The position numbers and the translations under genes were made by a program. A stretch of 64,000 nt of DNA from a virus. Below, in pieces: positions 3,459 through 53,918 of this stretch. Within the stretch, counting starts at the first letter, position 1; every line of letters starts with the position of its first letter. The notes beneath the pieces were generated by a model. That model was not told the DNA's origin. It saw only the letters and a list, made by a program, of their open reading frames with translations, and made no database searches. The stretch is taken from positions 1 through 64,000 of IMG/VR virus record IMGVR_UViG_3300025411_000011. One strand, written 5' to 3'.

Positions 3459-4058
3459 ATGATACACAACTTATTCCCCATTCCCCTATACATGAGCCGT
3501 GCCAGCGATCCTGCCAGTTTGGCCCAGGAACTTGAGCAAGCACAGAATCGAATCACATGGGCTGATTCCGGTGAGCTGGATGATCAACATCCTATCACTA
3601 CTGTTACCTACTTTGATGACGTTATAGCATCAGCTCAACTGGACTTGTTTGCGGCTGAACTTGAATATCATCTAGCTGAATACTGTCGTGAGCTAGATTT
3701 CACTGTGATTGCTCATGATCGTGCCAGTTGGCTAGCTGAGTACAATAGGAATGATTTCAGTGCCAGTCATGATCATGGAACTGCTGACATTGCCGGAGTC
3801 TACTACTATCAAACCACCGGGGATGATGGCAATATCTACTTTGAACGCCCTGGACAAGAACATACCAGTTTGGCTTTTACAGATCTGGGTGATCGTTTTG
3901 AAATGCGTCCTGTTGAAGGTATGATTTTACTGTTTCCTGGATGGCTACGTCATGGCGTTACCAAAAACACAACAGACGACACACGCAAGGTCATCAGCTT
4001 TAACATTTGGTTTGACCGTACTGCGTGGATCAAACAGCAACTAGGTCCAGGTAAGTAA
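3459..4058 (+). CDS. Putative 2OG-Fe(II) oxygenase (HxH type)
   Basis: 199 aa. The family opening (IHNLFPIPLY) begins right at this ATG, which is why I chose it over the upstream open frame. Candidate metal ligands are H104-D-H106 followed by the strand AGVYYYQ, then H165 in FPGWLRHGV, with R176 as a candidate 2-oxoglutarate contact. This layout matches the phage-rich putative 2OG-Fe(II) oxygenase family related to PKHD-type hydroxylases. Such enzymes hydroxylate proteins, nucleic acids or small molecules; the substrate here is unknown. No strong ribosome site is seen. Its 3' end overlaps the leftward small gene by 18 nt. Confidence 0.75.
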   Translation: MIHNLFPIPLYMSRASDPASLAQELEQAQNRITWADSGELDDQHPITTVTYFDDVIASAQLDLFAAELEYHLAEYCRELDFTVIAHDRASWLAEYNRNDFSASHDHGTADIAGVYYYQTTGDDGNIYFERPGQEHTSLAFTDLGDRFEMRPVEGMILLFPGWLRHGVTKNTTDDTRKVISFNIWFDRTAWIKQQLGPGK

Positions 4059-15256: not shown

Positions 15257-16726
15257 TTAATTAAACACTTTAACACCGTAATGGCGTTCAAAGCTCTTTG
15301 CATCTGCATGATCATTCACCATAGGTTTACCCTTAATGTTTAAACTGGTATTAAGTAACATCGGGCATCCAGTTCGAGCATACCATAGCTCTAAGAGTTT
15401 TCTGAACGGCGATCCATCGTTTGGAACAGTTTGTACACGTGAACTTCCATCACGATGCACGACAGCAGGATAAAGCTCAGGATTCCGTAAACGGGCGATG
15501 ACTTGCATATACCTACTATTATGCCAATTACGAGGCATAGTAAAATACTCATCAACAAACTCCTCGAGTATTGCTGGAGCAAACGGTCTGAATTGTTGTC
15601 GTTGTTTGATTTCATTTACTTTATCCTTTATATCTGTATCGCGGGGATCCGCTAATAAACTTCTATTACCTAATGCCCTTGGACCAAATTCTGCACGTCC
15701 TCGAGCAACACCGCATATTTTATTAATTTCTAAATAATCGACAATTTGTTCATTAGTTGCACGATAGCCCATGTTGTAACCTAGGAATGGGTTAAACTCA
15801 TTTTGCGTCATTTGCCATTCTGGATGTTTGGCTAATACTGCACCTATGGCACTACCAGCATCTCCTGGATTCGGCATTATCCAAGTATTGTCAAAATAGT
15901 TGCCCGTTAGTCTATTGGCGAGGCAATTTAACGCACATCCGCCCATCAGCACTAGATTTTTACTACTAACTAGCCTTGTTGCTTTTATCAACAAATGCTC
16001 AAAATAATCTTCATAAATTTCTTGTGTAGTGGCCGCAATCTCAAAACTATCTTTAACGGTTAAGTCAGGACGCCAATCCATTACACCTCTATGACAACTA
16101 CGTAAAAATTTTAAGTTGCCATAATTGTCTATAAAATCATGACTCATGTCAAAATTTAACTTGCTAGGATCACCATATGCGGCCATGCCCATTAAGATAT
16201 ATTCATCTTCCTTAGGCTTTAATCCCACACGTTGAGTCATGGCACTATAGAATAATCCGATACTATGTGGATAACGTAAACTCCATCGCTTTTTAAGTTT
16301 GCTACCTTTTGCTTCCCATATTGTAGCAGTATCCCACTCACCAATAGCGTCTATAACTACTACACATGCTTCATCGAATCCGCTGGTAAAATATCCACCA
16401 GCCGCATGACTAAGATGATGGTCGACATAAGTTATAGGTGCATTGATCTCGTAACGAGCCATGTAAATTTCAATATCATTGTCTCGACCTTTCCAACCTT
16501 GACCGGCATAAAATTGTCTTAAAGTCTTAAGAAATGGACGTTCATACCAATAAACTTGGTCAGGAGCTCCGTATTGTTTTGCGGCCATAACCAAATCACG
16601 ACATAGATTTTTATCGTTTTTTATACCGCTAAATCGTTCGCTGTGACTAGCAAACACTAATTTTTCATCACAGAATACCGCTATTGCGGCATCGTGACTA
16701 TTTGCAGAAATTCCCCAACTAATCAT
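15257..16726 (-). CDS. Carbamoyltransferase (NodU/CmcH/TobZ family)
   Basis: 489 aa from the ATG at 16726, which begins exactly at the family N-terminus MISWGISANSHDAA; a longer frame overlaps the primase and is not needed. Motifs: H11; HHLSHA at 103-108 and DAIGE at 126-130 (Kae1-like ASKHA carbamoyl-transfer core with the metal-binding histidines); GGCALN at 262-267; and the C-terminal YrdC-like signature GRAEFGPRALGNRS at 343-356 followed by FRPFAP. The family moves the carbamoyl group of carbamoyl phosphate, via carbamoyl-AMP, to a hydroxyl group. Some phage members act on 5-hydroxymethylcytosine in DNA. Its place between primase and helicase fits a role on nucleotides or DNA. Start overlaps the primase stop by 8 nt. 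Confidence 0.88.
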   Translation of the reverse strand: MISWGISANSHDAAIAVFCDEKLVFASHSERFSGIKNDKNLCRDLVMAAKQYGAPDQVYWYERPFLKTLRQFYAGQGWKGRDNDIEIYMARYEINAPITYVDHHLSHAAGGYFTSGFDEACVVVIDAIGEWDTATIWEAKGSKLKKRWSLRYPHSIGLFYSAMTQRVGLKPKEDEYILMGMAAYGDPSKLNFDMSHDFIDNYGNLKFLRSCHRGVMDWRPDLTVKDSFEIAATTQEIYEDYFEHLLIKATRLVSSKNLVLMGGCALNCLANRLTGNYFDNTWIMPNPGDAGSAIGAVLAKHPEWQMTQNEFNPFLGYNMGYRATNEQIVDYLEINKICGVARGRAEFGPRALGNRSLLADPRDTDIKDKVNEIKQRQQFRPFAPAILEEFVDEYFTMPRNWHNSRYMQVIARLRNPELYPAVVHRDGSSRVQTVPNDGSPFRKLLELWYARTGCPMLLNTSLNIKGKPMVNDHADAKSFERHYGVKVFN

Positions 16727-17687
16727 GTTTAAACCACTTTTTTGCTTTGAGTTGTATTTTAAGATTGTTAGACTCTTTAGAACTAACAATCAACCACATC
16801 GTAGCTAGTTTACCTAGTTTAATCACAGCATCATTGATATCTTTAATGCCTTCGGGCCAATCAGGCATGCTTACTGACCAATTATATTCAAGTGCGTGTT
16901 CTAGTGTTGCTTTACCAGCTTCGTCCCTATCTGGTACTAAAATTATTTCTTTACCTAGCTGTCTTAGTAGCCAATTTTGGCTGTCTTTGATCTCTGCTCC
17001 GAGCAATGCACAACCATCAATACTTAGTGCATCAAACGGGCCTTCGCTAACAATTATGAATTCTCGATCATTGTGTTGGTTGTCTAAATTAAACACATAC
17101 CCAGGTTGTTGCTCTGACAAATATTTAGGTTGTGCATCGTTGACTGCACGGGCAGTCCAGCCTACAATTTCTCCTTTGTATAAAAAAGGAATAATTAACC
17201 TGTTACTAAAACCAACTTTTGGAGTCCAATAGAAAAGAAAATCTTCAGGAAAAAGTCGTCTACTTACCATGTATTCTAATACAGGTATAAGTTTTTCTGG
17301 AGGGTTAGATAATAAGTCTGTAATCGCAATACTATCCATGGGCAATGCACGGATATCAAATTTAGGAATTATATTACGAACTTCTGCGGTATTATTTTGA
17401 TCTAAGCGTAATGCTTCCAATCTCATCTGCGAAATGATATCATCGGGGATATTTAGATCCCGCATGAACTCATTCATTTTTTTGCTTATGTGTCTACCAG
17501 GTTGCCAACTGCATTTAAATCCGCAATTAAAACAATGATAACTTACAGCATCGCCTTGATTAACAATAAATCCGCCACGCTGTCGTTTATCATCACAACA
17601 TACCGCGTTGAACCCAATCCAACCACTTGGAGTATGTTTACGCTTTGCAGGCAGGTATGTAAGTAATGTATCCGCTATTAGGCTCAT
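16719..17687 (-). CDS. 61: DNA primase, gp61-like
   Basis: 322 aa. An N-terminal zinc-binding region has C30/C31 and C52-x2-C55 (YHCFNCGFKCSW), and the Toprim core shows SEGPFDA at about 214-220 and PDRDEAGK at about 252-259. This is the domain order of phage primases that work with a DnaB-like helicase, which is encoded two genes away. The start ATG at 17687 follows a TATAAT box by 5 nt (with an AAGG between), so initiation may be nearly leaderless. Its 3' end overlaps the carbamoyltransferase start, suggesting translational coupling. Confidence 0.87.
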   Translation of the reverse strand: MSLIADTLLTYLPAKRKHTPSGWIGFNAVCCDDKRQRGGFIVNQGDAVSYHCFNCGFKCSWQPGRHISKKMNEFMRDLNIPDDIISQMRLEALRLDQNNTAEVRNIIPKFDIRALPMDSIAITDLLSNPPEKLIPVLEYMVSRRLFPEDFLFYWTPKVGFSNRLIIPFLYKGEIVGWTARAVNDAQPKYLSEQQPGYVFNLDNQHNDREFIIVSEGPFDALSIDGCALLGAEIKDSQNWLLRQLGKEIILVPDRDEAGKATLEHALEYNWSVSMPDWPEGIKDINDAVIKLGKLATMWLIVSSKESNNLKIQLKAKKWFKHD

Positions 17688-21162: not shown

Positions 21163-21742
21163 CGACTTCGATATCCTTAATTTTGACAAAATTACCTGAA
21201 ATAGATACTCTCTTTGATTCCCTATCTCTAAACGGATAAACATAATGCTGAATCTCTGCCGGAAAAATTAATATCATTTTTTCCTCAGGATGAATGAGAG
21301 CCTGTGGTGGAAATAAACTATTTTTGTATCCAAAATTAAATTGAATAGCACCCTCAACATAACCGATATCTTGTTTCTTTTTATAAAAATAATTGGCTCT
21401 AAATTTAGGAACTTTTAGATAAATCACATAAGACAATATACCATAATGATCATGCATAGGCAAGAACCCATCGTGTGCTTGTACATTGATCCACTGATTT
21501 GATAATTTTAAATCATTGTTACCAACATACTGATTAACATGACGACCAATCTGTTTATTATAGTAATCTCTATGCTCTTCTTTTAAAAATTTAAAATCTG
21601 CACCGCCATTCCAGAAATTTTCGTTTTGTTCTAGTGGCTGGTAATCTCCCAGATGGTTTTCATATTCGTCTAATAAAAATTTATAAAAATCATCGGAGAT
21701 TGAACTTTGATATATTTGTATTCCAACTGGGATTAAATTCAT
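21155..21742 (-). CDS. Putative 2OG-Fe(II) oxygenase (HxH type)
   Basis: 195 aa. Putative metal ligands H97-D-H99 lie in FLPMHDHYGILSYVIYL, with H166 in IFPAEIQHYVYPF and R178 in KRVSISGN as a candidate 2-oxoglutarate contact. This is the double-stranded beta-helix layout of phage 2OG oxygenases. Substrate unknown. It is adjacent to, and probably an ancient relative of, the next oxygenase gene, with a 4-nt overlap. A GAGGAAG ribosome site precedes the ATG. Confidence 0.72.
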   Translation of the reverse strand: MNLIPVGIQIYQSSISDDFYKFLLDEYENHLGDYQPLEQNENFWNGGADFKFLKEEHRDYYNKQIGRHVNQYVGNNDLKLSNQWINVQAHDGFLPMHDHYGILSYVIYLKVPKFRANYFYKKKQDIGYVEGAIQFNFGYKNSLFPPQALIHPEEKMILIFPAEIQHYVYPFRDRESKRVSISGNFVKIKDIEVDG

Positions 21743-22377
21743 TTTACTTCCTCGTCGATGGGGTATAATTTAGCATCAAACGCCATAACTGTTCTATGCC
21801 CGGCTCCTTTCCAAGGATAAACCGTATGCGGAAGATAGCTTGGGAAAACAATTACACTACCAGGGTTTGGCGTATATTTCCAAGTGTCTTGCATAACAAA
21901 TTTAGATATGTCTCGGTTCATAGGCAACTGAAAAATCAACTGACTATCGCTGGGCTTTTTAGTTAACTCGTCTAATTCAGGAGCACTGATATAGATATTT
22001 CCACTAATGTGTGCGTTAGGGTGTACATGAATTTCCTGGTAATCACCTGACTCTTGTCTAATGGTCCAAATGCTTCCAACTACAGGTTTACAAAGTTTTA
22101 GATCCTGATGTCCGGATTGTGCTGTGACTAAATCCATGTATCCTTGACAAATTTTTTCAATCCATGTAATTAACCAACTAACGTCTAACCCTAGTTCATT
22201 GGGATATACATGTACCTGTTGTCCACCTCTGATACTAAGAATATCTTCCCCAGAATCGTTTAGTTCTGGATGGGCATGTAGTGTTTCTGCCAGGCTATAA
22301 ATTCTGCTAAACTCCACAGGAGGAACTGTGTCGATAGCCATAATAATTGGTTGAAAATATGCTACTTGTAATGTCAT
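21739..22377 (-). CDS. Putative 2OG-Fe(II) oxygenase (HxH type)
   Basis: 212 aa. Putative ligands H117-V-H119 lie in QEIHVHPNAHISGNIYI, with H184 in VFPSYLPHTVYPW and R195 in GHRTVMAFDAKL. This closely follows the phage putative 2OG-Fe(II) oxygenase family. Phage members have been linked to protein or nucleic-acid hydroxylation, but nothing here shows the substrate. The ATG overlaps the TGA of the preceding gene by 4 nt. Confidence 0.75.
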   Translation of the reverse strand: MTLQVAYFQPIIMAIDTVPPVEFSRIYSLAETLHAHPELNDSGEDILSIRGGQQVHVYPNELGLDVSWLITWIEKICQGYMDLVTAQSGHQDLKLCKPVVGSIWTIRQESGDYQEIHVHPNAHISGNIYISAPELDELTKKPSDSQLIFQLPMNRDISKFVMQDTWKYTPNPGSVIVFPSYLPHTVYPWKGAGHRTVMAFDAKLYPIDEEVK

Positions 22378-47436: not shown

Positions 47437-47867
47437 AAGATAGAATAGTTTGTAGTGGTGCATTATTTTATGCTAAATCTACACAACGATTTTTATTACT
47501 TCAAAAAAGTCACGGTAAACACGAAGGCACGTGGGGATTAGTCGGCGGGACAAACATCATAGGTGAAACACCTTGGCAAGGTCTTCAACGCGAAATTAAA
47601 GAAGAAATAGGTGCAGTGCCTAAAATAATTAAAACAATCCCATTAGAAACATTTGTCAGTAACGATAAAGTATTTAATTTTCATACTTATTTGTGTGTAA
47701 TAGATAACGAGTTTGTTCCTGTCTTGAGTGACGAACACATTGGTTGGGCTTGGACTACTGTAGATCGCACACCTAAACCCTTACATCAAGGACTACGTAA
47801 TAGTTTTAACAGTAAAACTATTCGTACCAAATTACAAACTATATTTGACTTAGTTGATCTAGTTTAA
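47418..47867 (+). CDS. Nudix hydrolase
   Basis: 149 aa with a perfect Nudix box: G44-x5-E50-x7-R58-E59-I-K-E62-E63-I-G65. The preceding strands (SGALFYAKSTQRFLLLQKS) fit the fold. Nudix enzymes hydrolyse nucleoside diphosphates linked to another group (dNTPs, NADH, ADP-ribose, RNA caps); the substrate is not decidable here. The start overlaps the gp15 gene by 19 nt, so it is made late with neck proteins. Its end overlaps the halogenase-like gene by 29 nt. Confidence 0.85.
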   Translation: MENNIVKDRIVCSGALFYAKSTQRFLLLQKSHGKHEGTWGLVGGTNIIGETPWQGLQREIKEEIGAVPKIIKTIPLETFVSNDKVFNFHTYLCVIDNEFVPVLSDEHIGWAWTTVDRTPKPLHQGLRNSFNSKTIRTKLQTIFDLVDLV

Positions 47868-49041
47868 TATCAAAGCCTTCGATATATTCTTTCATCAAGG
47901 CTGAATTGTGTGCCCAATACTGCTCGTATTCTCCAGTCTGCTGACACAATCTTACATATTTTTGAAATCTTTCCGATGTTTGTAAACGTTCTTTAGCCAG
48001 TGCTGTGACTGTATTCCAGAAAGGCGTATCTTTTTTGCAAGGACCTACATAGTTTAGTGCAACTAAATTCAACATATCTTCCATACTTTTAAGATAAGAA
48101 GTATTAATTCCTCTATTAAAATGCGGTGTTTGTAAATTAGTACCTTTAATTAATGTTTCAATAAACTCTACAGACAAATTTATATAAAAATGTAACGGCA
48201 ATGCTTGTGCAGGTTCAAGAAAATATAGTCTGTTACCCATGGATAATATGCGTCCATTCATTGCTTCTTTTTTATAATACTGTCTCCAGCTAAATTTTCT
48301 TAATTTACTAGCATCAATATTTTTTAATTTAGAAAATTTTTCAATCGCTTCTTCCTGAGTTGTTATATTTTTATTATATAGATAACCAAAGGCTTTACGA
48401 TGAGTTAATGGTACTCCAAACATCCAGCCGTCGTCATGTGGATATGCACTTGTTAAATCTTCGTTATACTCTTTAAAGTCAGGAAATAGTATTACTGAGT
48501 TAACTGTTTCAAATTTTGGAAATTCGTATAGTCCACTATCCATTTCTTCGGCCGACGGTGATCCTCTACAATCGATGATATAGTCAAATTTATGTTGCAC
48601 TCCGTCGACTAATATCGATACGTGAGTATGATCTTGTGTTATGTCTGAGACATTACCGTGTATTTGAAAAAAATTATCGTATAATTTATCAAGTTTGTTG
48701 ATAACAAATCCGCTAAATTTTTCACTGTTGACATGCAATCCTGTATGTCCATGCCTTACTAGGAAATTTTTATCATTAATATCTTCCCAGTAGTAACGAG
48801 TACCCCAGCGAAGGGTACCATCGAACTCTTTTAATTCTTCAGTAACAGAAAAATCAATAGCATGATAAAGTAAACTAGGCATTATAGGGCTAGTACTTTC
48901 GCCCACAGTAGTTACAGGAATGTCAGGATTGTATATGCAATACACATCTATGTGTTTGCATCTATGGAATTTAAATTTATCAAAAATTGCAAGTAATGAA
49001 ACGGCGCTGGCGGTACCACTACCTATAATGCCTATTTTCAT
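47839..49041 (-). CDS. Divergent flavin-dependent halogenase-like enzyme
   Basis: 400 aa. FAD-binding GSGTAS at residues 7-12, TVGESTSP at 45-52, IIDCRG at 155-160 and MGNRLYFLEPAQA at 267-279 follow the order of tryptophan-halogenase-family enzymes. Two signatures differ: the position expected for the catalytic Lys (in DxTLK-type text) reads DGTLRWG, with R78, and the WxWxIP block reads WMFGVP at 206-211. Cyanophages are known to carry halogenases of this family; this one could be a halogenase with altered chemistry, a monooxygenase or inactive. It is the last gene of the fibre/radical-SAM operon. Confidence 0.75.
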   Translation of the reverse strand: MKIGIIGSGTASAVSLLAIFDKFKFHRCKHIDVYCIYNPDIPVTTVGESTSPIMPSLLYHAIDFSVTEELKEFDGTLRWGTRYYWEDINDKNFLVRHGHTGLHVNSEKFSGFVINKLDKLYDNFFQIHGNVSDITQDHTHVSILVDGVQHKFDYIIDCRGSPSAEEMDSGLYEFPKFETVNSVILFPDFKEYNEDLTSAYPHDDGWMFGVPLTHRKAFGYLYNKNITTQEEAIEKFSKLKNIDASKLRKFSWRQYYKKEAMNGRILSMGNRLYFLEPAQALPLHFYINLSVEFIETLIKGTNLQTPHFNRGINTSYLKSMEDMLNLVALNYVGPCKKDTPFWNTVTALAKERLQTSERFQKYVRLCQQTGEYEQYWAHNSALMKEYIEGFDIKLDQLSQI

Positions 49042-49048
49042 AAAAACC

Positions 49049-50044
49049 TTATTGTACGGTTATAACGCAGTCGTCTGATCCTGACCAATATTGAAAACCA
49101 CAACTTACTGTGATAGTGTCACCTGGAACAAGATGTGTTGCAATTAAACGAACAGTTCCTACACCGTTGACTGTTTGTACTTGTTGTTTATTCAAGTGAC
49201 CTGCCGTAGTTTTTAAATATATAGTTGCATTGTGATCCGTTATAGGCAATCCATGCTCAGAGCTTGTTTTTGCTGGGGGATTTAAATCGGTAGGAGTTCC
49301 TAAGTAAAACGGTAAATCGACATAGCCGTCTGGGCTGACAGTAGCAGTCTTATTTGTAAAATAAACTTTTGGCATAGTATATACGATTCTGCCAAGCTCG
49401 TCGGTGATTACATTTGTGAATTGTTCGCCTGACGATATTCTTACTAGGCCAGGATCGCTATCGCCCAACGCAACCATCATGTTCCAATCTGATGGATTCA
49501 TTTCTGCAAACGGAATAGAAATTAAAATCATAGGACTATTCTTTTGCAAAGACATTGCCCTAACTGGATTTTTCTTATGTAGTTGTGAATTGGCTACTAA
49601 ATTGTATAATGGGATACCTGTTCTTGTATTCAAAGCAGTTTGTTGAACGTATCTTACATTTAAATTTCTTACAGTAACTTGGTCAGCTGGGTGAGTGATT
49701 GCAAAAATAGCATGATCTGAAAATCCCTCATTGTTGGTAATATCTGTCCAATTTATTTCTCCAGAAATTCCTGCTGTTACACCAGGATAGACTCCTGAAG
49801 TTTGACTATAAACTCTATGTGTTTCTGTTTCCCATGCAAATTCGTCAGCAGGGCTTGGATATCTAACTCCGGCTACTTTTCTAGCAGTAACGGTATTATC
49901 TGCTAAACTAGCCCATTCCAACTGCAATTCTGATTTTTTATAGGCATCAAATACTGTCCACTGAAATCCAGTGTCAGTAAATTTTATATCTAGTGCTATC
50001 AACTGCGAATGTTGAAACTGTATTAAATTTTGAGTTAAATTCAT
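49049..50044 (-). CDS. Hypothetical protein with Ig-like C-terminus
   Basis: 331 aa, no family recognised. A central globular part (QKNSPMILISIPFAEMNPSDWNMMVALGDSDPG) is followed by strands VSPDGYVDLPFYLGTP and a C-terminal Ig-like module (HNATIYLKTTAGHLNKQQVQTVNGVGTVRLIATHLVPGDTITVSCGF). No signal peptide or catalytic motif. It sits between the radical SAM and halogenase-like genes and has its own GATAAATA late box and AAGGAAT site, so it is a late, probably virion protein and a possible substrate or partner of the neighbouring enzymes. Confidence 0.6.
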   Translation of the reverse strand: MNLTQNLIQFQHSQLIALDIKFTDTGFQWTVFDAYKKSELQLEWASLADNTVTARKVAGVRYPSPADEFAWETETHRVYSQTSGVYPGVTAGISGEINWTDITNNEGFSDHAIFAITHPADQVTVRNLNVRYVQQTALNTRTGIPLYNLVANSQLHKKNPVRAMSLQKNSPMILISIPFAEMNPSDWNMMVALGDSDPGLVRISSGEQFTNVITDELGRIVYTMPKVYFTNKTATVSPDGYVDLPFYLGTPTDLNPPAKTSSEHGLPITDHNATIYLKTTAGHLNKQQVQTVNGVGTVRLIATHLVPGDTITVSCGFQYWSGSDDCVITVQ

Positions 50045-50057
50045 GATCTGCTATTCC

Positions 50058-51524
50058 TTATTCCTGTTCAGTATTTATCAAGGAACTCTTACCGTAAACT
50101 TCGACATTGTCGATTACAGCAACTTTTTCACTGACAATCTTAATAGGTATTATTTTTTTCTTTTCTTCTTCGTGTTTGAATACACCGCCCCAGATATCTT
50201 GGCGCTCTAATGGTAATCCTTTGCCCTTAATATGGTAAGGAACATAACCACCTGTTATTTTTTCAATACTTGCGGCAAACAATGGTACGTTATCGCTATA
50301 GGCGTTATTGCAACTTGTAGTCCAGAATTCATCTGAAAGGAACATACATGCACCTTTACAAATATGCAACACTGGACAACTTGGACATTCTGCACGATTA
50401 CTCCAGTGTGTACTAGTAGTAATTTTTACGTCCTCGATCTCAGTAATCTTACCACCTAAGTGAGGTTCTCCGTTTTTGTTAATTTCGATAGCACTGACAT
50501 TTTGGCAAGTAATTACATTGCCGTTTAAATCAAATGCAACGGTTCTTTCGTCATCCATGCCGCATTTTTGACCTAAATAGTCTGCTTGCTGATGGGTCAA
50601 TACTGATTCTGTGAAATTATCAACTTTTTGTAATATGTTGCCAAAGCCGATTTCACCGTTAGATCCGTAAATTTCTCCGAACGCGATTTTTCTAAATTCG
50701 AAATGATCTTGTTTAGTTTGTAAACTGTGTTGTAGGCCATCGGCATCATATGCATCTACAAAGGTACCTTCACCTAAACTAACATTGGGATCATTTGTAA
50801 AATTAATAAAATAATCAAATATAGCTTTACGACTAAGATTTTGTCTGTTTAACATTGAGTTAAAACTGATGCGATTTAAAGGACGCAAAATCTGGTATAA
50901 ATCTAAAATAATTTCACGTTTCTTAGGATCTGCAAATGGATCTGGTCCGCGTACATGTTGTCCTGGCCCGTCATGACTGATAGCTACATGGAATTCCATA
51001 CTGTATAGCCAAGCACAGATTTCTTCTGTTAAAATACTACCATTAGTAATAATACTAAAAACTGGTTTCTTTCTCCAATCTTTAAAAAATTCTGCTACTG
51101 CTTCGGCCAGGGGTTTTAATGTCTTCCAGTAAACTAAAGGTTCACCTCCCCAAAATTCAACTCGTAAACCGTCTTCTTCGTTAAACTCTAAAGTCTTAAA
51201 CATTTCCATAAAATTTTCAATGTCTTTAGCATTAGTTTCACGTGGGCGTTCCACAAATTTTTGACTGCAATAATCACAACTATAATTACAACTTAATCCT
51301 AGTTGAATTTTTACGTGATTAGTACTGCGAGATTTAATTAAAGGACGATCTTTATCAAATGGTTTGTATGGTACTCGATTTTCAAAATTATTTGCATAAG
51401 CATCGGGATACTCATAGACGAATCCTGTTTCATCGCTTAAGACATTTTTTTCGTTGTCATAGAAGAACGTTCTTAGATCAGGTGGGTTTGATCCAAACTT
51501 TTCTGTCAGTATTTCAAAAATCAT
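50058..51524 (-). CDS. Radical SAM / SPASM peptide maturase
   Basis: 488 aa. The SAM-cleaving cluster motif is C79-x3-C83-x2-C86, with GGEP at 126-129 binding SAM. The C-terminal SPASM domain is complete: C321-x13-G335-x4-C340, then C380-x2-C383-x5-C389-x3-C393-x11-C405, enough for two auxiliary iron-sulphur clusters. This is the architecture of enzymes that install thioether or carbon cross-links in ribosomal peptides, or oxidise a sulphatase Cys/Ser. The gene directly upstream encodes an Asn/Cys-repeat protein, its likely substrate. No sulphatase is visible. Ribosome site AAGGAAT precedes the ATG, 18 nt after the upstream stop. Confidence 0.9.
   Translation of the reverse strand: MIFEILTEKFGSNPPDLRTFFYDNEKNVLSDETGFVYEYPDAYANNFENRVPYKPFDKDRPLIKSRSTNHVKIQLGLSCNYSCDYCSQKFVERPRETNAKDIENFMEMFKTLEFNEEDGLRVEFWGGEPLVYWKTLKPLAEAVAEFFKDWRKKPVFSIITNGSILTEEICAWLYSMEFHVAISHDGPGQHVRGPDPFADPKKREIILDLYQILRPLNRISFNSMLNRQNLSRKAIFDYFINFTNDPNVSLGEGTFVDAYDADGLQHSLQTKQDHFEFRKIAFGEIYGSNGEIGFGNILQKVDNFTESVLTHQQADYLGQKCGMDDERTVAFDLNGNVITCQNVSAIEINKNGEPHLGGKITEIEDVKITTSTHWSNRAECPSCPVLHICKGACMFLSDEFWTTSCNNAYSDNVPLFAASIEKITGGYVPYHIKGKGLPLERQDIWGGVFKHEEEKKKIIPIKIVSEKVAVIDNVEVYGKSSLINTEQE
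50072..50079 (-). promoter_or_regulatory. Late promoter inside the 3' end of the radical SAM gene
   Basis: GATAAATA on the minus strand, followed by a leader with AAGGAAT before the ATG at 50044. Confidence 0.55.
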
Positions 51525-51542
51525 AAGATTCCTTGTGGTATA

Positions 51543-51944
51543 TTAGCAGTTACAGTTACAGTTACAATTACAGTTACAATTACAGTTATAATATACGTTG
51601 GTATTAATGTTACAGTTGTAAGTGCAGTTGCAATTACAGTTGTTTTGTAACCAGTTTTGACCATCGCAATTTGTGCAATTGATGTTATTACAATTATAAC
51701 AGTTTGTACAGCAAATGTTACCACAATTACAATTATTTGGACAATTTCCGTTGTTGCAATTACCCTTGTTATTTGAACGATAGTATGCTCTGTTACGCAT
51801 TTCGTTCATAGTTGGGTAACTATCACGTTGTCCTGGAATTACATATCCATTAAGATTACTCAAATTGCTGTATGGACTGCTGTTAGGCAGTCCAATTTCG
51901 CCGTCAATTTGACTAATATAAATAGGACTTGAAGGAGTTGTCAT
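51543..51944 (-). CDS. Asn/Cys-repeat protein, candidate modified virion peptide
   Basis: 133 aa. Residues 1-60 have no Cys and include SQIDGEIGLPNSSPYSNL and FRG-like NRAYYRS, resembling fibre/virion N-terminal motifs of T4-like phages. Residues 61-133 hold 21 Cys and 30 Asn, mostly as NC, NCNC, CxNC and a final (NC)7 ending the protein. The nucleotide sequence is a TGT/TGC plus AAT/AAC series, so the composition is a real protein feature, not translation of a non-coding repeat. It lies between the S74 fibre (3 nt gap) and the radical SAM gene (18 nt gap) with an AAGGAAT ribosome site. Alternatives: metal-binding protein or disulphide-rich fibre tip. Confidence 0.8.
   Translation of the reverse strand: MTTPSSPIYISQIDGEIGLPNSSPYSNLSNLNGYVIPGQRDSYPTMNEMRNRAYYRSNNKGNCNNGNCPNNCNCGNICCTNCYNCNNINCTNCDGQNWLQNNCNCNCTYNCNINTNVYYNCNCNCNCNCNCNC
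51546..51587. repeat. Hexanucleotide repeat encoding (NC)7
   Basis: Plus strand shows successive TACAGT/TACAAT-type 6-mers encoding seven Asn-Cys pairs at the C-terminus. Unit length 6 keeps the frame if the tract expands or contracts. Confidence 0.75.
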
Positions 51945-51947
51945 CGT

Positions 51948-53918
51948 TTATTCCTTGTTAATCTGTGCTTTTAATTCTTTAACTTGGCTTGACAATTCCT
52001 TAACTGCTTCAATCACTAATGGTAATAACTTTTCGTACTGAACTGTCATGTACTTAGCGTCGATTGGAGCTGGTTTGATAATTTCTGGCAGGATTGCATT
52101 AACTTCTTGAGCAGAAACTCCAACTTCACGTTGAACAGTATATCCCAAATCCTGAGCAGTTTGGTTAGCTTCAAAGTAAAAACCATTTAATGTTTCTAAC
52201 TTAGCAAGAGCATCTTCAATTTTGCCCAAACGTGTCTTTAATCTGTCATCTGAGTAGTAAGCAACAATGTTGTTTGCCGCATAAATTGTACCACCACCAC
52301 CGTTAGTGTTAGTACCAACGCCTAGCGAACTAAAATAACCATATGTACTACCAGCATTCATTGTACCGCCGCCAGTTAAGTTAAACGCTGTTACGCTATT
52401 CATTGTGAAAGTTGTAATACCGTTAAAAGTAACTGTACCACCAGACTGTCCAACTGTAAAGTTAGTGTTGCTGATTGTAGCAGTACCACCGCTAGCACCA
52501 ATGTTAACTGCTGAACTTGCTCCAGTAAACAAGTTACCTGTACCAGCGTTGGTTGCAATGTTAACAGTACCAGTAGCTTGACCGTTGGTCAATAAGTTAA
52601 AGTTAACGTTGCTACCACTTTGAATACCAAATGTATTAGAAGTATTGATATACAACCCTTCTGAACTAACCCAAGCTGGGTTACCGCCACCGCTTGTTGG
52701 ACCTAATGTACTGCTTGCCCATTGTAATGTGTGATTACTAGTTCCATATAATAATATGCCGCCGCCGTTGGCAAATGTATCAGCACTACCTGGAGTAATA
52801 GCTGTAATTGTACCAGCTACAGGAGTTGTGCCGCCTGTTACTGTTACCTGAATACTAGTTCCACTTACAATGTTGCTTATTACATAACTTGTACCGCCGC
52901 CGCCTAAACTACCTGTACCGTTAGTTGCACTAACAGCTTGACCGTTTACCAAGTTGGTAGTGTTGGGCATACCGGTAATAGTTGCAATCCAAGGACTGTA
53001 GTTAACGTTGCTTACAGTGAATGTTAAGTTGTTAGGACTATTAGTACCACCAAGTAAGTTACCACCAATAGTAATTGTATCATTGATTGCATAGTTACTT
53101 CCTGGATTAACCAATGTAATTGTAGTTACACCAGTATAAGTTGTACCTGACCCAGTTGTAGTGATGTTAAAAGTTGCACCCGATCCGCTACCACTTGTAG
53201 CAAATTGTCCAACACCACTGTATGTACCTGCACCAGTTACTTTTGTACCAGTAATACTTGTAAATGTTGTACTACCGCCTAACGCACCACCGATAGTTGT
53301 AACAGTACCGCCACCATAAGTAACTGGATTAACATATCCAATTTCAATATTTTTATCTTCTGTACGTACTGAACTAGAGTTAAGAACAACTGTTCCGCCT
53401 TTTACTAACAATTGATTGTTAATAGTAGTTGTACCAGTGCTAGAACCAATATTGATACTAGTTGCCGCGCCTGCAAAGTTAACTGTCTGAGTATTTGTAT
53501 TGTAGATATTGGTGGTACCAGTATTGGTACTAATCAAATCAGCTGAAAAAGTTCCGTTAATACCAAATTGATTACCGCCTGGGAATGTAATTATACTATA
53601 GTTAGTACCATCAGATCCAATAATACAACTAGATCCTGCTGGCATGGCCAATAAGTTTGTACTAGAACCACCTGGTCCGTTAAACACCGGAGAACTAGGA
53701 CTACCAGCAATATATCCGCTAGGAGCAGAAAGTGTAACAACACCACTAGTGTTGTTAAAATAACTTTGCGACTGTCCTAAAAATAATGTTGGTCCTGGGA
53801 TAACCACCGTGTACGGTGCAGATCCTTGAAATTCTGTGTAACCACCTTGTGCAGGTGTTAACAGAGTTTGTGCTCCGGAAACAATTTCTGTTGCCAGCGA
53901 TGTATTATAACGTGCCAT
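51948..53918 (-). CDS. Tail fibre with self-cleaving S74 chaperone domain
   Basis: 656 aa. The N-terminus (YNTSLATEIVSGAQTLLTPAQGGYTEFQG) and Thr/Gly/Asn-rich beta repeats make a trimeric fibre. The C-terminal intramolecular chaperone of the Peptidase_S74 type starts at SDDRLK (S556, K561: nucleophile and base), followed by LGYTVQREVGVSAQEVNAILPEI and a C-terminal coiled coil. Known members cut themselves before the Ser once the trimer has folded, which would release the last 101 residues here. A ribosome site of AGAGAG type precedes the ATG. Confidence 0.82.
   Translation of the reverse strand: MARYNTSLATEIVSGAQTLLTPAQGGYTEFQGSAPYTVVIPGPTLFLGQSQSYFNNTSGVVTLSAPSGYIAGSPSSPVFNGPGGSSTNLLAMPAGSSCIIGSDGTNYSIITFPGGNQFGINGTFSADLISTNTGTTNIYNTNTQTVNFAGAATSINIGSSTGTTTINNQLLVKGGTVVLNSSSVRTEDKNIEIGYVNPVTYGGGTVTTIGGALGGSTTFTSITGTKVTGAGTYSGVGQFATSGSGSGATFNITTTGSGTTYTGVTTITLVNPGSNYAINDTITIGGNLLGGTNSPNNLTFTVSNVNYSPWIATITGMPNTTNLVNGQAVSATNGTGSLGGGGTSYVISNIVSGTSIQVTVTGGTTPVAGTITAITPGSADTFANGGGILLYGTSNHTLQWASSTLGPTSGGGNPAWVSSEGLYINTSNTFGIQSGSNVNFNLLTNGQATGTVNIATNAGTGNLFTGASSAVNIGASGGTATISNTNFTVGQSGGTVTFNGITTFTMNSVTAFNLTGGGTMNAGSTYGYFSSLGVGTNTNGGGGTIYAANNIVAYYSDDRLKTRLGKIEDALAKLETLNGFYFEANQTAQDLGYTVQREVGVSAQEVNAILPEIIKPAPIDAKYMTVQYEKLLPLVIEAVKELSSQVKELKAQINKE

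Follow-up and report, generated by a model that had tools for sequence, protein, structure and literature searches.

The window (the whole stretch of 64,000 nucleotides that we analyzed) is part of a 101,891-base record of a T4-like myovirus, with genes for a tail sheath, a tail tube, a terminase, and a DnaB-type helicase. Its fiber region lies on the minus strand, where a 3200-aa ORF and a gene for a 112-aa protein are followed by a tail fiber of 656 aa with a C-terminal peptidase S74 chaperone (51948..53918; PF13884, 2.7e-8) and, directly after it, by a 133-aa protein rich in Asn and Cys (51543..51944). The next genes encode a radical SAM/SPASM enzyme of 488 aa (50058..51524), which matches phrog_1802 (7e-62) and is our proposed tail maturase, an Ig-like protein of 331 aa (49049..50044), and a protein of the Trp_halogenase family with degenerate motifs (47839..49041). 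The Asn/Cys and enzyme ORFs are separated by 18 nt, and both are preceded by an AAGGAAT ribosome site (ACAAGGAATAAACG-ATG and ACAAGGAATCTT-ATG). The original prediction for this locus had noted the S74 fiber, the 18-nt gap, and the matching ribosome sites, and had placed the pair in a fiber operon. We recovered each of these features, and the fiber context recurs across lineages, with fiber-type scaffolds in the homologs. In another part of the window lies an unusual phage auxiliary gene, encoding a Nol-like carbamoyltransferase (15257-16789, minus strand; phrog_1601, 5e-98).

The Asn/Cys tail and its scaffolds

The 133-aa protein has 21 Cys and 38 Asn in total. Its first 60 residues (51765-51944, minus strand) have no Cys. 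The last 73 (residues 61-133; 51546-51764, minus strand) hold all 21 Cys and 30 of the Asn, making up a putative Cys-rich substrate domain that ends in an (NC)7 run (51546..51587, minus strand). On recount, these numbers are exactly those given originally, as is the Cys-free N-terminal segment. The DNA encoding three Asn-Cys units, AAYTGYAAYTGYAAYTGY, is present 6 times in the window versus 0 in 100 dinucleotide-preserving shuffles, and we found no copy elsewhere in the 101,891-base record. The repeat uses both AAC and AAT and both TGT and TGC, and therefore is not one simple DNA repeat. The Asn-Cys pairs are kept at the protein level in relatives of the window protein: across 18 homologs of the window-type domain, N89C90, N92C93, N110C111, and N104 with C105 are invariant. 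The spacing of the cysteines is irregular in the longer domains of this type. When the 133-aa protein was used as a query, we obtained no match in phage isolates, because conservation of its N-terminal scaffold is limited. We therefore looked for the tail as a DNA pattern and via the enzyme.

In all sets together, the tail is present on about 34 scaffold groups, several of which match tail-fiber families. The groups were made with a 60% coverage rule, since common repeats merged most fibers without it. The scaffolds differ between groups, and the tail is what these enzyme-associated groups have in common. The description of a small repeat protein, given in the original prediction, holds for the window, but elsewhere the tail often ends a full-length fiber and there is no separate small protein. 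In most scaffolds, the tail forms the C terminus of the protein; the short fiber of L228, for instance, ends in TASNCNCNCNC. In the remaining ones, another domain starts immediately after the tail. This is a peptidase S74 domain in L044 (NCNCNCNCNCAC-FW-SDDTLK) and L080. In the cultured Achromobacter phages JWF (NCNCDCNCNCSCFPAGT) and 2-1 (NCNCDCNCSCFPAGT), the NC repeats lie just before a Hint domain, which also follows the tail in L110, L169, L170, L174, L176, L177, and L297. JWF, in which gp28 carries the tail, is an inducible phage (PMC3899368). Both S74 and Hint domains self-cleave, and therefore the mature fiber would present the tail at its distal end. We also observed an unnamed domain starting with SKI(I/V)C(A/T)K directly after the NC tail, at the position taken by S74 or Hint in other fibers. 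It makes up the C-terminal ~170 aa of L049:7482-8372, is present in some 30 relatives, and has a distant relative in the fiber region of Synechococcus phage SynMITS9220M01. This is possibly another self-cleaving or chaperone domain.

Between the cysteines of terminal runs, Asn (439) predominates, followed by Ala (115) and Asp (58), and in 142 of 167 runs the residue ahead of the first Cys is Asn, both counts being biased toward Asn by the (NC)4 scan described below. The role initially attributed to Asn thus stands in part: Asn is the dominant spacer but is not obligatory, as Ala and Asp are also found. Many tails have Cys or Asn-Cys at the very C terminus; in others, the last residue is Gly, Lys, Trp, or a different one.

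Association of the tail with the enzyme

We scanned viral contigs for DNA encoding (Asn-Cys)4, without consulting the enzyme, and obtained 119 viral loci, in 90 of which the repeat ends a plausible ORF. Wherever such a C-terminal (NC)4 ORF has at least 4.5 kb of downstream sequence, a homologous radical SAM/SPASM enzyme is encoded downstream on the same strand (45/45, counted as loci and not as independent lineages). Repeat proteins regularly lacking the enzyme, which the original prediction had named as evidence against itself, were not found among these 45. The reverse analysis started from 86 enzyme clusters (85% identity) picked without regard to tails. An NCxCxC ORF lies within 5 kb of the enzyme on the same strand in 70 of the 86 clusters; for the opposite strand, the count is 2 of 86. 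Several of the exceptions involve truncated contigs or variant tails (L037, L061, L137), and the clusters with full flanks and no recognized tail are mainly distant, with 31-34% identity (L163, L165, L168, L173). In the close relatives found in viral contigs, a Cys-rich protein adjoins the enzyme, as in the window, wherever the contig extends far enough. A wider profile search yielded more than 500 viral relatives of the enzyme, 80 of which were kept, as well as 80 loci in bacterial genome assemblies, and a search in plasmids found none. In these gene neighborhoods, the pairing of tail and enzyme is nearly obligate.

In some loci (L193, L233, L199, L257, L245), the NC tail is attached to small proteins of a quite different kind (HTHIFYDDYSTACNCNCNCNC and similar). 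The radical SAM genes that accompany them are much more distant, at 24-29% identity, and hence the coupling may extend beyond the phrog_1802-type enzyme family. We also observed two near-identical contigs, L336 and L337, with a difference of ~230 bases at the Cys-rich gene. The repeat has probably collapsed during assembly, and Cys-rich tails may be missing from other metagenome assemblies too.

The enzyme and the possible fate of the tail

The enzyme matches PF04055 and TIGR04085 above their cut-offs. Its CX3CX2C motif (CNYSCDYC, residues 79-86, with C79, C83, and C86; 51267..51290, minus strand) is invariant in 60/60 homologs. The SPASM domain (residues 321-405; 50310..50564, minus strand) has the motif CX13GX4C...CX2CX5CX3C...C (C321, G335, C340, C380, C383, C389, C393, C405), which fits the published seven-cysteine consensus CX9-15GX4C-CX2CX5CX3C-C (PMC6231123). 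The enzyme had been described as a complete radical SAM protein with all seven SPASM cysteines, and this is indeed the case, with the published spacing. These seven and the three of the SAM cluster are the only ten conserved cysteines in the alignment of 60 homologs, where no other column has more than 23% Cys. All cut-offs of the named full-length NCBIfam maturase models were missed, the best matches being PapB (74 versus 340 bits) and QhpD (69 versus 453 bits).

An AlphaFold2 model of the enzyme, built from the 60 homologs with the JWF row left out, reached a pLDDT of 93. Its best matches among solved structures are anSME, CteB, ChlB, SuiB, TigE, and SkfB, with anSME as the top Foldseek match (9.8e-12), and the modeled fold appears to be that of peptide-modifying SPASM enzymes. 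An enzyme family with an assigned non-peptide substrate would also have counted against the original prediction; none fits, given the missed NCBIfam cut-offs and this predicted fold. At its N terminus, ahead of the core, the model shows three strands and a single short helix; an RRE has three strands and three helices.

These features invite comparison with the sactipeptide and ranthipeptide maturases CteB, RumMC, and PapB, which share with the phage enzyme the radical SAM fold with a SPASM domain, a Cys-rich substrate encoded next door, and, plausibly, thioether chemistry. As in maturase systems, the Cys-rich precursor is adjacent to the enzyme and co-conserved with it. The phage system differs in that its substrate would be a fiber protein or the end of a fiber rather than a leader-core peptide, and in that the enzyme, far below the cut-offs of these families, has no evident complete RRE in the model. 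QhpD, the maturase of quinohemoprotein amine dehydrogenase, resembles it in acting on a structural or enzymic protein and not on a secreted peptide. Unlike QhpD, the phage enzyme is viral and below the QhpD cut-off, and its presumed substrate is a short-period Asn-Cys repeat. The phage system is thus akin to sactipeptide/ranthipeptide or QhpD-type maturation and a member of no named family that we tested. Among known fiber tips, that of T4 gp37, with its iron-binding HxH motifs, is comparable in position to the Asn-Cys tail (PMC11705849): both have a short-period motif resembling metal ligands at the distal end, in some cases with S74-type C-terminal chaperones, but here the motif consists of Cys and Asn instead of His, and a dedicated radical enzyme is encoded in the operon.

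We consider it likely that the 133-aa protein is a fiber-tip protein and that the adjacent SPASM enzyme is dedicated to its Asn-Cys tail, turning this substrate into a thioether-stapled tip. The separate parts of this proposal differ in strength. That the enzyme acts on the tail is, from the genomic association, very probable. That the product is a thioether is argued from the fold and the cluster ligands and is rather probable, and the same degree of belief applies to a contact between the tip and the host. Late in infection, the fiber-tip protein would be made together with the enzyme and the fiber genes. The enzyme would recognize the local Asn-Cys motif without a leader. Recognition of this kind is probable, given that the tail occurs on about 34 different scaffold groups, and it is also plausible by comparison with anSME, which is leaderless and recognizes a local motif. 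The enzyme would then abstract hydrogen from tail residues, among which Asn is the commonest neighbor of Cys, and couple them to Cys sulfur, perhaps processively. The resulting staples would give a compact, rigid, redox-stable, and non-reducible distal tip for host recognition. Compared with anSME, Aux I of the enzyme lacks one protein ligand. The same holds for CteB, in which a substrate Cys fills the open site (PMC6231123). In ruminococcin C, Asn35 and Cys22 form a natural thioether pair, showing that Asn is a proven acceptor (PMC8188230). Given the open Aux I site and this precedent for Asn, thioether stapling is the leading chemistry. Since the spacers are not always Asn, Asn cannot be the only acceptor.

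How do other reactions compare with the thioether proposal? With anSME as the top structural match, one might expect the enzyme to oxidize tail cysteines to formylglycine, giving an aldehyde-bearing tip able to react with host amines. The anSME model of NCBIfam aligns along most of the enzyme, and the JWF homolog is annotated as a sulfatase-maturating enzyme in one record. However, the equivalent of anSME Cys261, the eighth cluster ligand, is absent, and the residue after Cys340, corresponding to the Asp that follows Cys276 in anSME and is its catalytic base, is Gln in 57/60 homologs. These two positions led us to reject an identity with anSME and make formylglycine formation unlikely, and the tails are also devoid of a CxPxR-type sulfatase motif; we regard this reaction as quite improbable. 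Because the tail repeats strictly every two residues, one could also think of epimerization, in which every second residue would be inverted to give an alternating L/D tail forming a beta-helix as in polytheonamide. Polytheonamide-type epimerases do work in an alternating pattern (PMC5682303), and the epimerase YydG has a weak sequence match to the enzyme (2.5e-4). In known epimerases, the hydrogen is donated by a Cys of the enzyme (PMC5682303), whereas no Cys is conserved here beyond the ten cluster ligands, and the irregular Cys spacing of the longer window-type domains does not suit such a pattern. Epimerization is therefore disfavored and, in our opinion, very unlikely. In the absence of an eighth cluster Cys, a catalytic Asp, and a spare conserved Cys, Cys-derived thioether cross-linking is the best guess.

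Two further explanations depart more from the known maturases. The tail could be left unmodified and form a metal-binding or disulfide tip, like the iron sites of T4 gp37, with the radical enzyme having another target. CxC arrays are natural metal ligands, and iron-binding HxH motifs at fiber tips are established (PMC11705849). It is hard to reconcile another target with a tail that is the common element of ~34 enzyme-associated scaffold groups and with an enzyme present at 45/45 (NC)4 tails, and we give this explanation very little weight, although metal binding could coexist with modification. Alternatively, the enzyme could perform other radical chemistry on the tail, such as forming a carbon-carbon or carbon-oxygen bond, C-terminal decarboxylation, or something else. 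The SPASM class is functionally diverse, its reactions are hard to predict from sequence, and function does not track sequence clusters (PMC6231123). The Cys or Asn-Cys at the very C terminus of many tails could be a target, but the endings in Gly, Lys, Trp, or other residues argue against an obligatory C-terminal reaction, and the many conserved cysteines point to sulfur chemistry. This possibility is unlikely.

SPASM enzymes that modify proteins have been described for RiPPs, for sulfatases, and for a few other enzymes. In the open-access papers that we searched, phage genome descriptions list radical SAM genes, but we found no SPASM enzyme building a part of the virus particle. The pairing of tail and enzyme recurs in many unrelated phages and thus appears to be a mode of making a viral fiber tip that has not been described before. 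If true, the receptor-binding tips of phages need not be limited to the 20 standard residues, with a bearing on host recognition by fibers and on their stability, and a substrate could be assigned to the so far unassigned phage radical SAM family phrog_1802.

Halogenases and other recurrent partners

Sister clades encode a canonical flavin-dependent tryptophan halogenase, which lies near the enzyme (e.g., L052:9230-10393, L044:8722-9873, and loci L307-L346) and retains the motifs GGGTAGW, WxWKIP, and IKFTNW. These copies track a C-terminal Trp of the tail. Of the 80% clusters for which a tail and sufficient flank are available, 8 have both the canonical halogenase and a Trp-ending tail, 56 have neither, and none is mixed. 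On the enzyme tree, the halogenase is present in 22/22 Trp-tailed rows versus 0/41 others; this pattern reflects only two changes on the tree, and hence the statistics are not independent. A test of independent pairs was concordant and, with two changes, gave no phylogenetically independent significance. Seen from the halogenase side, wherever a locus also contains the enzyme and an intact precursor, the Cys tail terminates in Trp or, in front of an S74 cleavage site, in CFW. The Trp stays at the very end despite the turnover of the remaining tail, both where a stop codon defines the terminus and where proteolysis does. One locus of another lineage, L290, has a Trp tail without a halogenase in the locus. 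The conserved Trp in CDxQxWLQ was rejected as a halogenation site, because it is also present in loci without halogenase. The C-terminal Trp may be the natural substrate of the sister-clade halogenases, which would give some viral tryptophan halogenases a natural protein substrate.

The halogenase-like protein of the window has WMFGVP in place of WxWxIP and TRYYW without the conserved Lys of IKFTNW, and the window tail has no C-terminal Trp. We do not favor an action of this protein on its own tail, and its sequence and that of the tail would fit a joint loss of function and target.

Two other partners recur, each in 50/102 enzyme lineages. One is the Ig-like protein, whose homologs adjoin the enzyme and which has an invasin/intimin-like fold, weakly supported. 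The other is a 2OG-Fe(II) oxygenase-like protein (PF13759), which may hydroxylate the tail. A frequent gene order is tail fiber, Ig-like, oxygenase, enzyme. We lean slightly toward the joint view that many tailed phages finish their fibers with RiPP-like chemistry, in which the Asn-Cys tail would be stapled and optional tailoring enzymes would decorate it, the canonical halogenase acting on a C-terminal Trp in some clades and the 2OG-Fe(II) oxygenase perhaps on other tails, so that the virion tip would be chemically non-standard. The oxygenase-like gene lies between the tail fiber and the enzyme in L139, L228, L243, L250, L282, and others. In the window, the Ig-like gene is beside the enzyme and three PF13759 (2OG-FeII_Oxy_5) proteins are encoded outside the fiber region, at 21191-22071 (minus strand) and 3726-4004 (plus strand), two of the three being adjacent.
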